NCBI GenBank assembly: GCA_012517575.1
Contig: JAAYUQ010000037.1
Location: forward strand, 1 to 47,619
From: Bacteroidales bacterium
GTDB taxonomy: Bacteria > Bacteroidota > Bacteroidia > Bacteroidales > Paludibacteraceae
Direction: 5' to 3'
Length of the DNA: 47,619 nt
The notes under the pieces were generated by a model, which was given only the letters and a program-made list of their open reading frames with translations, searched no databases and was not told the origin of the DNA. The position numbers were made by a program, and so were the translations under genes. How positions within the stretch are numbered: position 1 is the stretch's first letter; each line of letters begins with the position of its first letter. This document shows, piece after piece, positions 7,647 through 13,694 of the stretch.

Positions 7647-8711
7647 TCAGGATTTCTCCATGATTTCCATTTGATGACGGATGGACTCTTCGTGAATAGC
7701 AATAAGAACAGTTTTCATGAAGTCACCATCCATTCCCATTTCTATGGCTTGTTGCACGCGATTTTGCAAAATTTCATCATACCGTTGTGTTTGAAGAATT
7801 GGCATGTTGTGTTCCTTTTTGTACCAGCCAATTTCTTCAGCCACTCGCATACGGTGAGCCAGTAATTCGAGCAGATTGTTGTCCAGTTCGTCAATCTGAC
7901 GACGCAAAGCAGAAAGATTTTCGGTTGTTTGCATGGTGTCGCGAATAACCAGTGATTCCAGAATAAATTCAAGCACTTGCGGAGTAATTTGCTGCGCCGC
8001 ATCACTCCAAGCTTTTTCGGGATTGCAATGCGATTCAATCATTAATCCATCGAAATTTAAATCCATAGCCTGCTGCGACAAAGGAGCAATCAGTTCTCGT
8101 TTTCCGCCAATATGGCTCGGATCGCAGAAAATGGGCAAGTCGGGCATTTGACGACGCAATTCAATAGGGATGTGCCATTGTGGTAAATTTCTGTAAATTT
8201 TCTTGTCGTAAGAACTGAAGCCGCGATGAACAGCTGCTATTTTGTGAATTCCGGCATTGTAGATGCGTTCTATCGCTCCAATCCACAACTCCAAATCGGG
8301 ATTCACGGGATTTTTAATAAACACCGGAATATCGACACCTTCCAAAGCATCGGCAATTTCCTGAACAGCAAACGGATTAGCAGTAGTACGCGCACCAATC
8401 CAAAGAATATCGATGTCGTGGGCAAGAGCAGCACGAACATGTTTGGCGTTGGCAACTTCCACTGTTGTGTACAATCCCAATTCCGATTTCACTCTTTTCA
8501 ACCATGGAAGCCCCTTTTCTCCCACTCCTTCAAAACCTCCGGGTTTGGTTCGAGGTTTCCAGATGCCGGCACGATAAATTTTTATTCCGATAGAAGCTAG
8601 TCCACGTGCCGTATCCATAACCTGCTCTTCAGTTTCTGCGCTGCATGGCCCGGCAATTATAATGGGACGTTTGGCTTCAACTCCCGGCAGTAAAATTGAT
8701 TCAAATTTCAT
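7647..8711 (-). CDS. Bifunctional DAHP synthase / chorismate mutase (type II)
   Basis: This fusion enzyme condenses PEP and erythrose 4-phosphate to DAHP and converts chorismate to prephenate. Residues 1-265 are a KDO8P-type (type I-beta) DAHP synthase with GPCSAETEEQ, FIKNPVNPD, CDPSHIGGKRE and ESHCNPEKAWSDA. Residues 270-354 are an AroQ chorismate mutase (LRRQIDELDNNLLELLAHRM..AEEIGWYK). A C-terminal mutase is the arrangement known from Porphyromonas and Prevotella, where the mutase domain also mediates prephenate feedback. It is the third gene of the pheA operon. The prephenate dehydrogenase gene that often follows in Bacteroides is not here. Confidence 0.95.
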   Translation of the reverse strand: MKFESILLPGVEAKRPIIIAGPCSAETEEQVMDTARGLASIGIKIYRAGIWKPRTKPGGFEGVGEKGLPWLKRVKSELGLYTTVEVANAKHVRAALAHDIDILWIGARTTANPFAVQEIADALEGVDIPVFIKNPVNPDLELWIGAIERIYNAGIHKIAAVHRGFSSYDKKIYRNLPQWHIPIELRRQMPDLPIFCDPSHIGGKRELIAPLSQQAMDLNFDGLMIESHCNPEKAWSDAAQQITPQVLEFILESLVIRDTMQTTENLSALRRQIDELDNNLLELLAHRMRVAEEIGWYKKEHNMPILQTQRYDEILQNRVQQAIEMGMDGDFMKTVLIAIHEESIRHQMEIMEKS

Positions 8712-8762: not shown

Positions 8763-9919
8763 TCATTGTTCTATTCTTTTCACCACTTCTTCTAATGTAG
8801 ATTCGGGACAGCATAATGAAATGCGGACATATCTCTTTCCCTTGTCGCCAAAAATAAATCCGGGTGTAATAAAAACATTTTTTTCCCATACAGAATTTCA
8901 TCAGCCAATGCTCCTGCATCGCGGTAATTGTCAGGGATTTTTCCCCAAACAAAAAGTCCCACCTGTTCGGTATCATAACTGCATTTGAGTAAATCCAAAA
9001 TTTTGAAGGCAATGTTTCTGCGCCGTGCATATACAACGTTCATCTGGTCGTGCCACTCCTTCGGATTTTTCAGGGCTTCGGCTGCTGCCATCATCATCGG
9101 ACGGAACATTCCGGAATCTACATTTGATTTAACTCTCAACACCCACTCCACAAATTGTTGGTTGGAAGCCAGCATGGCAATACGCCAACCGGCCATGTTG
9201 TGCGACTTGCTCATGGAGTTCATTTCGATACAAATATCTTTGGCACCTTCGACTGAAAGAATACTGAGTTTTCGATCGTTCAGAATAAAACTATAGGGAT
9301 TGTCGTTACAAATTATAATATTGTGTTTTTTACCAAAAGCCACCAGTTTTTCAAAAAGTTCTACCGAAGCATTGGCACCGGTCGGCATGTTGGGATAATT
9401 GGTCCACATTAATTTTACGCCATCCAGGTTCATTTTTTCCAGTGCATCGAAATCAGGTTGCCACTGATGTTTTTCATCCAAATCGTAAGGAATAACTTTA
9501 GCTTCGCACAAATGACTGACGGAAGTGTAGGTGGGATAACCGGGATTGGGAACAAGTACGCCATCGCCGGGGTTGAGAAATGCCAGAGAGATGTGTAAAA
9601 TTCCTTCCTTCGACCCTATCAACGGCTGAATTTCGGTATTCGGATTTAGCTCTACACCATACCATTTTTTATACCATTCGGCAAAGCCGTTGCGCAACTC
9701 GGGAATTCCGATATAGCTCTGATAACCATGAACATTGGGCTTATGTGCTTCCTTGCAAAGTGTTTCGATAGTTGCTTCCGAAGGAGGAAGATCCGGACTT
9801 CCGATTCCCAAATTTATCACATCTTTACCGGCAGCTTTCATCTCGTCGATTTCTTTCAGTTTGGTGGAGAAATAATATTCAGAAACATTATTTACTCGTC
9901 TGGCAGGTTCAATTTGCAT
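8763..9919 (-). pseudogene. PLP-dependent aromatic aminotransferase with a C-terminal frameshift
   Basis: This is a class I/II aminotransferase (fold type I). It has YQSYIGIPELRNGFAEWY, NPGYPTYTS, NYPNMPTGA, ICNDNPYSF and the PLP-lysine motif NSMSKSHNMAGWR. It probably transaminates phenylpyruvate or hydroxyphenylpyruvate, as expected between pheA and the DAHP synthase gene. The continuous frame stops at 8792 with an atypical tail (...MFLLHPDLFLATRERD). The next frame gives the expected ending (VFITPGFIFG..KGKRYVRISLCCPE..LEEVVKRIEQ) and stops at 8763. The frames meet at seven A (8878-8884) after GGG. A -1 shift there restores a full protein of about 385 residues. A base-calling error, a real mutation and recoding are all possible. 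Confidence 0.85.
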
Positions 9920-9963: not shown

Positions 9964-10797
9964 TTAATTGTCGACATGATATTCTCCCATTATTTGAAAT
10001 TCATCAATTAAAGGGAGCATGGCATCGATAGCTTGCTTGTATCGTGAATAATCATTGAATGTGAGATTGATATAAAATTGATATTCCCATTCTTTCCCTA
10101 TAATCGGCAATGACTGAATTTTGGTAAGATTCATGTGATAAAAAGCCAAAATGGAGAGAACCTGCGAGAGACTGCCCTCTACGTGAGGCAAAGTGAAAAC
10201 CAGAGAAGCTTTGTTTATTTCATCATTTTTTGTCATTTCCAACGCCAATGTCGGTTCGGCAACAATCAGAAAACGGGTAAAATTTCGTTTGTTGGTTTCA
10301 ATGTTTCTTTCCAGAATTTGCAGTCCATATTTTTCAGCGGCAAAAAGGCTGCAGATAGCTGCTCTTTTGTAAATCTGACCATCAACAATTTCTTTTGCAG
10401 ACAGAGCCGTGTCTTCACTTTCTACCGCTTTCAAATGCTTGTGCGATTCCAGAAAATCTTCACATTGCATCAAGGCAATGGGGTGTGAATGAACTTCTTC
10501 AATTTCTTCGAGCTTTTGATGAGGCAAAGCTACCAAATGATGTTCAATGTGCAATTTTTGTTCTCCTACAACAAGACAGCCACTTTCGCGCAAAAGATTG
10601 TGATTTTGCAACAAACTACCGGCGATGGTGTTTTCTATGGCAATAATTCCCAGAAGAGATTTGTCGCCTTCTATAGCTTTAAAAACATCTTTAAATGTTT
10701 CGCAGGGAATAATCTCAATTTCTTCTCCCTTAAAATACTCACGCGCTGCAATTTCGTGAAATGCTCCACTGATACCCTGAATGGCAATTCTTTTCAT
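9964..10797 (-). CDS. pheA: Prephenate dehydratase
   Basis: The enzyme converts prephenate to phenylpyruvate for phenylalanine synthesis. The catalytic domain (about 1-180) has the family TRF motif (NFTRFLIV) and the AIENTIAGSL block. A C-terminal ACT domain (about 195-275) would sense phenylalanine, but its usual ESRP motif reads QSLP (KIQSLPIIG), so effector binding may be altered. ATG at 10797 (MKRIAIQGISGAFH) is the proper start. The longer frame to 10830 runs back through the upstream attenuator hairpin. It is the first gene of the aromatic operon and lies 16 bases after that terminator. Confidence 0.93.
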   Translation of the reverse strand: MKRIAIQGISGAFHEIAAREYFKGEEIEIIPCETFKDVFKAIEGDKSLLGIIAIENTIAGSLLQNHNLLRESGCLVVGEQKLHIEHHLVALPHQKLEEIEEVHSHPIALMQCEDFLESHKHLKAVESEDTALSAKEIVDGQIYKRAAICSLFAAEKYGLQILERNIETNKRNFTRFLIVAEPTLALEMTKNDEINKASLVFTLPHVEGSLSQVLSILAFYHMNLTKIQSLPIIGKEWEYQFYINLTFNDYSRYKQAIDAMLPLIDEFQIMGEYHVDN

Positions 10798-10812
10798 TTT
10801 ATCTGTTTTAAA

Positions 10813-10847
10813 ATAAAAAATCCTGCTCAAGTCAATTGAGCAGGATT
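10813..10847 (-). terminator. Attenuator terminator upstream of pheA
   Basis: Read on the minus strand, AATCCTGCTCAA (10847-10836), the 5-base loop TTGAC and TTGAGCAGGATT (10830-10819) form a perfect 12-base stem. TTTTTTATTT follows directly. It lies between the leader-peptide frame and the pheA start codon, the place expected for a transcription attenuator. No T-run follows in the plus direction, so it acts only on the pheA transcript. Confidence 0.88.
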
Positions 10848-10900
10848 CTATATTGTTTTTAAAAATTTCATTTTTTCATGCCATTTTTTTACATATCATT

Positions 10901-10909
10901 ATCCTGCTC
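10901..10909 (-). promoter_or_regulatory. Antiterminator arm next to the leader stop codon
   Basis: GAGCAGGAT directly follows the leader TAA. It is identical to part of the 3' arm of the attenuator terminator, so it can pair over 9 bases with the terminator's 5' arm (ATCCTGCTC). A ribosome finishing the leader would cover it and allow termination. A ribosome stalled earlier on Phe/Tyr codons would leave it free to pair and block the terminator. Confidence 0.8.
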
Positions 10910-10963
10910 TTACCTTTTAAAGTAAAAGTAAAAATAAAAATATGTAAAGAAACGACTTTTCAT
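10910..10963 (-). CDS. Phe/Tyr-rich attenuator leader peptide
   Basis: This 17-codon frame encodes MKSRFFTYFYFYFYFKR and stops at TAA (10910-10912). Ten of 17 residues are aromatic: six Phe and four Tyr, alternating from residue 8 to 15. It starts 35 bases downstream of a consensus promoter -7 box and ends against the antiterminator arm. This is the standard layout of leader-peptide attenuation, as in enterobacterial pheL. Having both Phe and Tyr codons fits an operon that supplies prephenate for both amino acids. No strong Shine-Dalgarno sequence is visible, which is usual in Bacteroidota. The gene is too short for routine ORF callers. Confidence 0.85.
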   Translation of the reverse strand: MKSRFFTYFYFYFYFKR

Positions 10964-10997
10964 AAAAAATATCTTGAAGCGTTTTTGTTTAACGGTG

Positions 10998-11029
10998 CAA
11001 AAGTAAAAATAATTTTGAGTTAAAACAAA
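10998..11029 (-). promoter_or_regulatory. Promoter of the pheA operon
   Basis: On the minus strand TTTG (11029-11026), a 20-base spacer and TACTTTTG (11005-10998) match the Bacteroidetes primary-sigma promoter (TTTG, 19-21 bases, TAnnTTTG) exactly. Transcription should begin near 10990, giving a short untranslated stretch before the leader-peptide ATG at 10963. Confidence 0.8.
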
Positions 11030-11066
11030 CAAATTGACAAAAAAGTTTCAAAAAATAATGAATTTG

Positions 11067-13694
11067 TTATTTGTTCAGAAAATCATCGAGTAATTTCAGA
11101 GCTTTATTGATGGCAACAGAAAGTCCTGCTGTGTTTTTTCCGCCTGCTGTGGCAAAGAAAGGCTGTCCTCCTCCACCACCCTGAATTTCCTTTGAAATTT
11201 CACGAATTATTTGAGCAGCATTCAACCCTTTGGCAACCAGATCGTCCGAAACGAGCACTGTCAAAGAAGGTTTGCCATCCAAGATGTTGCCTGTGATAAA
11301 AAAGAGTTTTTCGTTCTGAAGATTTTTAATCTGAAACGCCAGGGTTTTTGCCTGTTCTACGGTCAAATTTCCTTCATAGCGAATTATGTGAATTCCGTTT
11401 ATTATTTTCGCTTGAGACATAAGCTGGTCACGGAGTTGAAGCAATTTTTCGTGCTGATATGCGTTGATCTGTTTTTTCAAATCCGTATTCTCTTCCATCA
11501 GCTTTCTCACTGCGCTTATCAAATTACCGGGATTATTCAATATTTCCTTCGTTTCCGAAAGGATATCTTGCTGTTCGTCAATCAACTTTTCTACTGCTTT
11601 ACCCGTTATAGCTTCTATTCGGCGAATTCCTGCTGCAATGGAACTTTCGGAAAGTATTCTTACCATTCCGATTTCTCCCGTAGCTTTTACGTGGGTTCCG
11701 CCGCAAAGTTCTTTTGAACTGCCAAACTGAATCACTCTTACCGTTTCGCCATATTTTTCACCAAACAAAGCCATCGCTCCCATTTCTTTTGCTTTGTTTA
11801 CAGGCACTTCCCTTATTTCGTAAAGCGGAAGATTTTCACGGATTTTCTTATTGGCAAGAGCTTCGACAGCGCGAATTTCTTCTTTGGTCATTTTTTGAAA
11901 GTGGGAAAAATCAAAACGCAGGCTGTCAGGGCCAACATACGATCCTTTTTGTTCCACATGCGCTCCCAAAACCGTTCTCAATGCTTCATGCAGCAAATGT
12001 GTTGCCGAATGATTGCAAGAAGTGGCTTGTCGATTTTCAAGATGAACAACAGCCGTAAAAGTTCCCGTAACCTCTGACGGAAGCTGTTTAACAATATGAA
12101 CCGAAAGGTTGTTTTCTTTTTTTGTGTCAAGAATTTCTATTTTTTCGTTTTCTCTTATCAACCAACCTCTGTCGCCTACCTGACCACCCATCTCGGCATA
12201 GAAAGGCGTAACGGACAAAACAAGCTGGTAAAATTCCTGGTTTTTCTGCTTTATTTTACGATAACGAAGTATGCTCGTCTCGCATGAAGTATAATCGTAA
12301 CCCACAAACTGGCTGTCGCCTTCACGCAAAACAATCCAGTCGCCGGTTTCGACATTGGCTGCATTTCGGGCGCGTTCTTTCTGCTTCTGCATTTCCGCAT
12401 TAAACTCATTCATATTGACTGAAAAATTATTCTCACTCAGAATGAGTTCGGTCAAATCAATGGGAAATCCAAAAGTATCGTACAAAACAAACGCATCGGC
12501 GCCTGAAATTTCCCTTTTATTCGCAACACGGGCTTCCTCCATTTTTCTTTCCAGCAATCGGATACCGGTTTCAAGTGTACGCAAAAAGGATTCCTCTTCC
12601 TCTTTTATCACCTTTTCGATGAGCGATTTTTGACTTATCAATTCGGGATAGGCGCTTCCCATCGTTTGGCACAGCACGTCAATCAATTGATACATAAATG
12701 GAGCATGCAGATGCAGAAAAGTATATCCATATCGAACGGCTCGTCGCAAAATACGCCGAATTACATATCCGGCTTTGATGTTGGAAGGCAGCTGTCCATC
12801 CGCAATAGAAAAGGCAATTGCCCTGATATGATCGGATACGACACGCATGGCAACATCAATTTTTTCGTCCTTCCCATACTCCGTTCCACTGATTTTTCCT
12901 ATTTCACGGATAAGCGGTTGAAAAATATCGGTATCGTAATTGGAAGTTTTTCCCTGAATAACCATGCACAGCCGTTCGAATCCCATTCCCGTATCGATTA
13001 CTTTGGCTGGAAGTTCTTCCAATGTGCCATCGGCTTTTCGGTTGTATTGCATGAAAACATTGTTCCAGAGCTCAATCACCAGTGGATGCCCTTGATTGAT
13101 AAGCGAAAGCCCATCAACTTTTGCACGTTCTTCATCGCTTCGGATGTCAATATGAATTTCGGAACACGGACCGCAAGGACCGGTTTCGCCCATTTCCCAA
13201 AAATTGTCTTTTTTGCTCCCATTGATAATTCTTTCGGCCGGCAGAAATTGCGACCAAATGCCCGCAGCTTCTTTATCTCTTTCGAGCCCTTCGGTTGGAG
13301 AACCCTCAAAAACAGTTACATATAATCTATTTTTGTCAATTTTTAATACTTCAGTAAGGTATTCCCATGCCCATTCGATGGCTTCCTTCTTGAAATAGTC
13401 GCCAAACGACCAGTTGCCAAGCATTTCGAACATGGTGTGATGATAGGTATCATGTCCAACCTCTTCCAAATCGTTGTGTTTTCCACTCACCCGAAGACAT
13501 TTTTGCGAATTGGCGACGCGTGGGTATTTTATGGGATCATTACCCAAAATAATATTTTTAAACTGATTCATACCCGCATTGGTAAACATCAAAGTGGGAT
13601 CATCTTTGATAACCATTGGTGCCGAAGGTACAATTTTGTGTCCTTTCCCTGCGAAGAAATCAAGAAAAGATTGACGAATTTCCTGTGAAGTCAT
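11067..13694 (-). CDS. alaS: Alanyl-tRNA synthetase
   Basis: This class II synthetase charges tRNA-Ala. The N-terminal aminoacylation domain shows [30 protein letters not shown] and the GFERL block of motif 3. The editing domain carries the zinc ligands HSATHLLH and CGGTH. The C-terminal domain ends with the glycine-rich [19 protein letters not shown] segment. The length of 875 residues is normal. A -7-like TATTTTTG lies at 13781-13774 on the minus strand. It sits back to back with the promoter of the M23 peptidase gene. Confidence 0.97.

Follow-up and report, generated by a model that had tools for sequence, protein, structure and literature searches.

The window, that is, the whole 47,619-nt stretch of Bacteroidales DNA analysed here, carries on its minus strand a presumed operon of three genes, led by pheA and followed by an aminotransferase gene and a gene for a DAHP synthase fused to chorismate mutase (Table 1). 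The last enzyme serves Phe and Tyr synthesis alike. The gene preceding pheA on the same strand, alaS, ends at position 11067, ~37 nt before a promoter-like site. Between this site and pheA lie a short open reading frame (ORF) and an intrinsic terminator, which the initial annotation had described as the parts of a complete leader-peptide attenuator.

Table 1. Features of the pheA leader and operon (positions in the window).
Feature	Position	Strand	Details	Basis
Promoter-like site, Bacteroidota type	10998..11029	minus	TTTG (11029-11026), 20-nt spacer, TACTTTTG (11005-10998)	sequence
Leader-peptide ORF, MKSRFFTYFYFYFYFKR	10910..10963	minus	ATG 10963, stop TAA 10912-10910	sequence
Control codons (codons 5-15 of the leader)	10919..10951	minus	same RNA as arm 1	folds
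Arm 2, GAGCAGGAT, antiterminator 5' half	10901..10909	minus	immediately 3' of the leader stop	
Intrinsic terminator hairpin	10819..10847	minus	arm 3 10847-10836, arm 4 10830-10819, then T-run	
pheA, prephenate dehydratase	9964..10797	minus	ATG 10797; Pfam PF00800, E 6.7e-55	
Class I/II aminotransferase, second gene of the presumed operon	8792..9919	minus	Pfam PF00155	
DAHP synthase fused to chorismate mutase, third gene	7647..8711	minus	Pfam PF00793 + PF01817	

Architecture of the pheA leader

The promoter consensus of Bacteroidota is TTTG / TAnnTTTG, and the site upstream of the leader ORF agrees with it, in line with the consensus promoter of the initial annotation; a sigma-70 promoter scan around the leader remained at chance level (2 found vs 1.7 expected). 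The 17 codons of the leader ORF include six for Phe and four for Tyr, and both the coordinates and the codon counts first given for this frame proved right. Longer frames with upstream TTG starts (L002/L003) were rejected because they cross the promoter-like site. The arm placed directly past the stop is complementary to part of the terminator 5' arm at 9/9 positions (duplex -14.3 kcal/mol), as proposed, and is identical at 9/9 positions to part of the 3' arm. The terminator itself, AATCCTGCTCAA-TTGAC-TTGAGCAGGATT, has the perfect 12-bp stem and T-run originally noted (hairpin -19.3 kcal/mol). An intrinsic terminator between the leader ORF and the first structural gene, one of the features by which attenuators are recognized, is therefore present at this locus. 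A strict scan found no terminator for alaS before pheA other than this hairpin, which may thus end alaS transcripts too.

In this AT-rich genome, Phe/Tyr runs of six codons are common enough (18 matches vs 51 for the reversed control pattern) that such a run alone proves nothing. The pheA leader is the only 8-codon run among these 18 matches, within which lengths were compared, and it accounts for three overlapping matches. Terminator-like sites in the 301-base region number two (one hairpin, seen on both strands) vs 0.0 expected, and the fold of the leader RNA has a z of -6.55 vs dinucleotide shuffles. The combination of parts, together with the conservation described below, is far beyond chance.

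The leader RNA was folded in its alternative states, as had initially been suggested, with ~11 nt past the A-site codon assumed to be covered by the ribosome. With the ribosome at the first Tyr codon, the RNA through arm 3 folds into a 9-bp antiterminator, and with the ribosome stalled at the last Phe codon a 7-bp antiterminator forms in the same length of RNA. A ribosome placed at the stop covers arm 2, which leaves arms 3 and 4 to fold into the terminator. If the ribosome is absent, arm 1 pairs with arm 2 and beyond, and with arm 2 occupied in this 1:2 helix the terminator again forms. Once arm 4 is included, the terminator is favoured in every fold of the window RNA; the antiterminator would therefore have to act during transcription, as in classical attenuation.

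Conservation of the leader and co-change of its arms

PheA loci were taken from the genomes of 61 relatives (36 with a match, 30 loci obtained), from contigs of named genomes (39 loci) and from 247 Bacteroidales genomes, 111 of which have a prephenate dehydratase domain. The domain was unmatched in the other 136/247 genomes, pointing to Phe auxotrophy in many of them or to another route. With the phylum sample excluded, 168 of 172 upstreams qualified, with a minimum of 200 nt and a PheA of >150 aa, and from these 108 representatives with <75% PheA identity were retained. The conservation check proposed at the outset bore out the leader. A Phe/Tyr run, counted at a score of 10 or more, is present in 99/108 of these diverged upstreams, compared to 3.9% of dinucleotide shuffles, 7/108 reverse complements and 0/108 with a different T-rich codon set; nine of the 108 lack it. 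An in-frame ATG is found in 96/99 leaders, and 95/99 have at least two Tyr within the last ten codons of the run. When windows were selected on Phe only, Tyr made up 41.7% of the remaining positions vs 4.9% in shuffles; when selected on Tyr only, Phe made up 50.6% of the other positions vs 10.9%. Judging from these counts, both residues are under selection in the leaders. A second mark of attenuators, a short ORF with codons for the product of the operon, is thus present at the locus and predicted to be translated. The promoter element is conserved as well: in 70/94 leaders a TAnnTTTG lies no more than 110 nt ahead of the leader ATG (7.7% when shuffled), most commonly ~28 nt before it.

A recognised terminator follows the run in 93/99 leaders and is missing from six. 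We defined an arm 2 match as a word of at least 6 nt, at most 30 nt past the run, that is complementary to the 5' arm of the same terminator. Such a match to the leader's own terminator exists in 69/93 leaders vs 4.2% when shuffled (24/93 are without one), and in 67 of these 69 it starts 6-17 nt past the last Phe/Tyr codon. When terminators were swapped between species, 5000 swaps gave a mean of 19.6 and a maximum of 34 matches, far fewer than the 69 with the leaders' own. The arm sequences vary between species, for example GAGCAGGA, CGAGGCT, GACCGGGA and AAGGTGAGGC, and the terminator changes along with them. Alternative pairing with the terminator 5' arm, a further defining feature of attenuators, has thus been kept by co-change. 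At least four of the nine arm-2 nucleotides are paired back to the codon run in 76/93 leaders. Antiterminators average 10.0 pairs vs 5.5 with a shuffled arm 2, and the finding of at least five pairs in 91/93 is uninformative because of this background. In computed folds the terminator is stronger than the antiterminator in only 44/93, a comparison that mixes lengths and is likewise uninformative.

Tyr codons and operon content

The relation of Tyr codons to operon content was examined at 92 leader loci with at least 4.2 kb of readable downstream sequence, in a test that began post hoc. A locus was called shared when the same strand carries a DAHP synthase, aminotransferase or tyrA homologue downstream of pheA, and pheA-alone when it carries none of these. 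Leaders without Tyr occur at 0/86 shared loci vs 5/6 pheA-alone loci (L013; L126, L134; L152, L166). The sixth pheA-alone leader (L105) has one Tyr codon, and two shared-locus leaders (L097, L100) have just one each. Among loci at <75% PheA identity, 3/4 pheA-alone leaders are Tyr-less vs 0/71 at shared loci (Fisher 6e-5). A PheA tree of 103 rows has three changes in the Tyr-less state and four in the alone state; the three Tyr losses fall in three lineages, each with separation of pheA. Independent contrasts on this tree (n=4) gave three that agree, none that oppose and one tie (sign test p 0.25). Two of the pheA-alone loci, L152 and L166, have ilvD-, ilvB- and ilvN-like ORFs (by eye) beginning ~190-210 nt after pheA.

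A forward test was made on unused genomes, with classes fixed before the upstream DNA was examined and the alone class set by DAHP synthase only. It drew on 57 genomes among the matches listed, of which 46 were not classed as alone and nine of these were taken for family spread. All nine shared loci have Phe/Tyr leaders. The ten alone loci include two recognisable leaders, both Tyr-less and from a family already represented: that of L303 scored 12, and that of L302, whose contig stops ~2.6 kb past pheA, scored 9.0, below the cut-off of 10, and was accepted by eye on its arm and terminator. The other eight have no clear leader (L298 is borderline with one Tyr, the remaining seven have none). 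The class of G600 and G603 is less sure since their contigs stop ~2-3 kb past pheA. One further locus (G634/L304), whose contig stops shortly past pheA, had been flagged as uncertain beforehand and was excluded from the count; its leader carries Tyr. The forward test thus agreed with the proposed link between Tyr and operon content, on thin numbers. At three loci of family f69 (L299, L300 and L301), pheA is distant from DAHP synthase and has no recognisable Phe/Tyr leader; attenuation seems to have been lost there or never gained.

The share of Tyr codons is only weakly related to the presence of tyrA in the operon (p 0.026 for 38 loci, 0.050 for 70 loci), and this relation was dropped as support. 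A tyrA-like gene lies elsewhere in the window's genome (L222:1237-2010), with all prephenate-dehydrogenase models below their curated cut-offs and no Phe/Tyr leader before it by eye. With the genome 89% complete, the assembly may lack a further tyrA.

These data bear on the most serious alternative, namely that only the charging of tRNA-Phe is sensed and that the Tyr codons UAC and UAU are kept to build arm 1 of the 1:2 helix. The folds are in line with such a role: UAC codons pair with GUA past the run in the window RNA, and leaders with permuted codons show less arm 1:2 pairing than the real ones (median z -1.74, n=93; z <0 in 74/93). However, the order of Phe and Tyr differs from species to species, yet Tyr is missing where pheA stands alone (5/6 loci vs 0/86 shared loci), and the Tyr-less leaders at those loci still have terminators. 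We therefore regard a leader that senses Phe alone as unlikely. The pattern supports functional Tyr codons and a leader that would sense both amino acids, as the initial annotation had expected from the mixed codons, with few independent events on which to judge.

Proposed mechanism, known leaders and distribution

In the proposed mechanism, RNA polymerase would initiate shortly upstream and a ribosome would start the leader peptide. A shortage of Phe- or Tyr-tRNA would stall the ribosome within the Phe/Tyr codons and leave arm 2 free to pair with arm 3 before arm 4 is made, and transcription would read through to pheA and the shared Phe/Tyr genes. With an ample supply of both charged tRNAs, the ribosome would reach the stop codon and mask arm 2, so that arms 3 and 4 form the terminator. 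In an untranslated leader the codon run would pair with arm 2, and termination would again result. Sequence and comparison establish which parts are present, that they are conserved, that arm and terminator change together and that Tyr codons go with operon content; stalling, masking, the kinetics and the change in expression are what we infer from these findings. The pheA leader is real and conserved, and very probably a functional attenuator. Comparison strongly supports classical ribosome-mediated attenuation, in line with the translation-coupled mechanism first suggested for this locus, and we consider it highly likely that the leader is a ribosome-mediated transcription attenuator responding to the charging of both tRNA-Phe and tRNA-Tyr.

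Other ways of placing a switch here fare poorly. A nascent peptide that arrests the ribosome by recognition of a ligand, as TnaC does, would also put a conserved short leader peptide ahead of the switch. Over the 99 leaders, however, no position is fixed beyond its Phe-or-Tyr identity, and both peptide length and the residues that follow the run vary, making arrest of this kind very improbable. An ordinary alaS terminator next to a chance T-rich ORF would fit the position of alaS, the lack of another terminator in the strict scan and the commonness of six-codon runs in this genome, but the promoter-like site separates alaS from the hairpin and the run, arm 2 and terminator are conserved across diverged pheA upstreams; we give this reading almost no weight. 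A T-box or protein-mediated antitermination, which likewise places a terminator before a biosynthetic operon, is just as hard to credit given a conserved leader ORF that neither would predict and the lack of a T-box match at gathering in the window or among those listed in a relaxed scan of 10780-11060.

No Rfam family matches at gathering in the window, nor at 16 related loci save for one tRNA in L036, and near-matches in the relaxed scan of 10780-11060 were far below gathering scores and taken as chance. The pheL/pheA attenuator of enteric bacteria (RF01859, Phe_leader) scores 20.5 bits at the pheA leader (E 0.32, vs a gathering score of 55). It has in common with the Bacteroidales leader a product-rich leader peptide, a four-arm switch and a terminator before pheA. 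The two RNAs are not homologous, and the sensor codons of pheL are for Phe alone, in contrast to the Phe and Tyr codons found here. The Bacteroidales operon also carries genes for the aminotransferase and the DAHP synthase/chorismate mutase, and often tyrA. The thr and ilvGMEDA leaders of E. coli each carry, in one leader, codons for at least two end products of the operon. They are likewise multivalent, for other amino acids and in another phylum; among the relatives of the pheA leader, codon content tracks operon content. The Leu/phe leader of Lactococcus lactis (RF01743), also named for two amino acids and listed as a cis-regulatory RNA in Table 1 of PMC2864571, has no match in the window.

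The same table lists Bacteroid-trp (RF01692) as a cis-regulatory RNA of Bacteroidetes. This model has no match at gathering in the window and none among those listed in the relaxed scan of 10780-11060. It matches in 9/41 genomes at E <=0.001, four of them above the cut-off of 49; the window's own genome has one match, on another contig and below the cut-off (G000:C156:32983-33123, 43.3 bits). An above-cut-off match in a genus mate (L252, G002:C7) encodes MKTNSIINKFWWWRLRIFRS, followed by a stop, before a trpB-like gene (by eye), and the same type of leader, MKTNSIINKFWWWRLRIFRS, occurs at L249. Bacteroid-trp is linked to another amino acid. By eye, its post-codon arm at L252, TCGTGAG, is complementary to the loop and 3' arm of its terminator, and not to the 5' arm as in the pheA leader. 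At L006 (G024:C36:1-2303), a minus-strand pheA with its Phe/Tyr leader diverges from a plus-strand pair consisting of a 176-aa ORF (1155-1685) and a trpB-like gene from 1682 (by eye). A Bacteroid-trp match above the cut-off (C36:1080-1197, plus strand) lies in between, giving two divergent attenuators.

Within the phylum, a 2021 study of Flavobacterium psychrophilum described a structured 5' element before pheA that is kept in Flavobacteriaceae and has no Rfam match, as well as clues to leader-peptide attenuation ahead of amino-acid operons (PMC9723704). In the accessible text of that report the element is given without a leader sequence, a Phe/Tyr reading or a link to Bacteroidales. Short ORFs resembling leader peptides have been noted in Bacteroides 5' UTRs (PMC7366714). 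The initial claim of novelty thus holds in part: no description of a Phe/Tyr leader in Bacteroidota was found in the open-licence literature (Lopatovskaya et al. 2010 may cover part), and the Flavobacteriaceae element and Bacteroid-trp precede it. The mechanism is known; what is new is its bivalent Phe/Tyr member, a 5' element of pheA and a Trp counterpart being already published.

The class and phylum samples, drawn from the matches listed, are non-random, so that their counts are not rates. Among these matches, 5/13 loci of the class outside Bacteroidales score at least 10 (L202, L203, L204, L209 and L210), as does 1/37 loci of the phylum outside the class (L215); by eye, all six have a terminator 3' of the run. 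L204, L209 and L210, from one genus, have FYFSN[NS]FYFFF runs followed by terminators. At L215 (1-1801), a run YYTGFGFYYFY is followed by GCCGGGA and a hairpin, ATCCCGAC..GTCGGGAT, with a T-run before pheA; from this locus, the switch may be older than the class. A narrow fixed-pattern search of the 247 genomes gave eight matches, four of them before pheA (G000, G020, G092 and G240). The other four were rejected as second sites of the switch: three run on through long open frames, that at L245 is open for 34 codons, and no terminator was seen by eye within 120 nt of any of them. We think it likely that the leader belongs to an ancient family of bivalent attenuators for which Rfam has no model, one that is common throughout Bacteroidales and extends to some other Bacteroidia and to at least one lineage outside that class. 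In this family the Phe/Tyr codon mix would be an evolving read-out of the operon product, with both codons where genes are shared, Phe alone or nearly so where pheA has separated, and often no leader in the strays.

The leader would provide a concrete regulator for the Phe/Tyr operon of gut and environmental bacteria, which is predicted to open when either amino acid runs short. Lineages in which pheA stands alone and the leader naturally lacks Tyr codons could serve as controls in tests of bivalent sensing. Attenuation requires a ribosome close behind RNA polymerase, and a conserved attenuator therefore makes coupling in Bacteroidota directly testable. If the proposed mechanism is true, the spread of the attenuator would imply that ribosomes keep up with RNA polymerase in this phylum.
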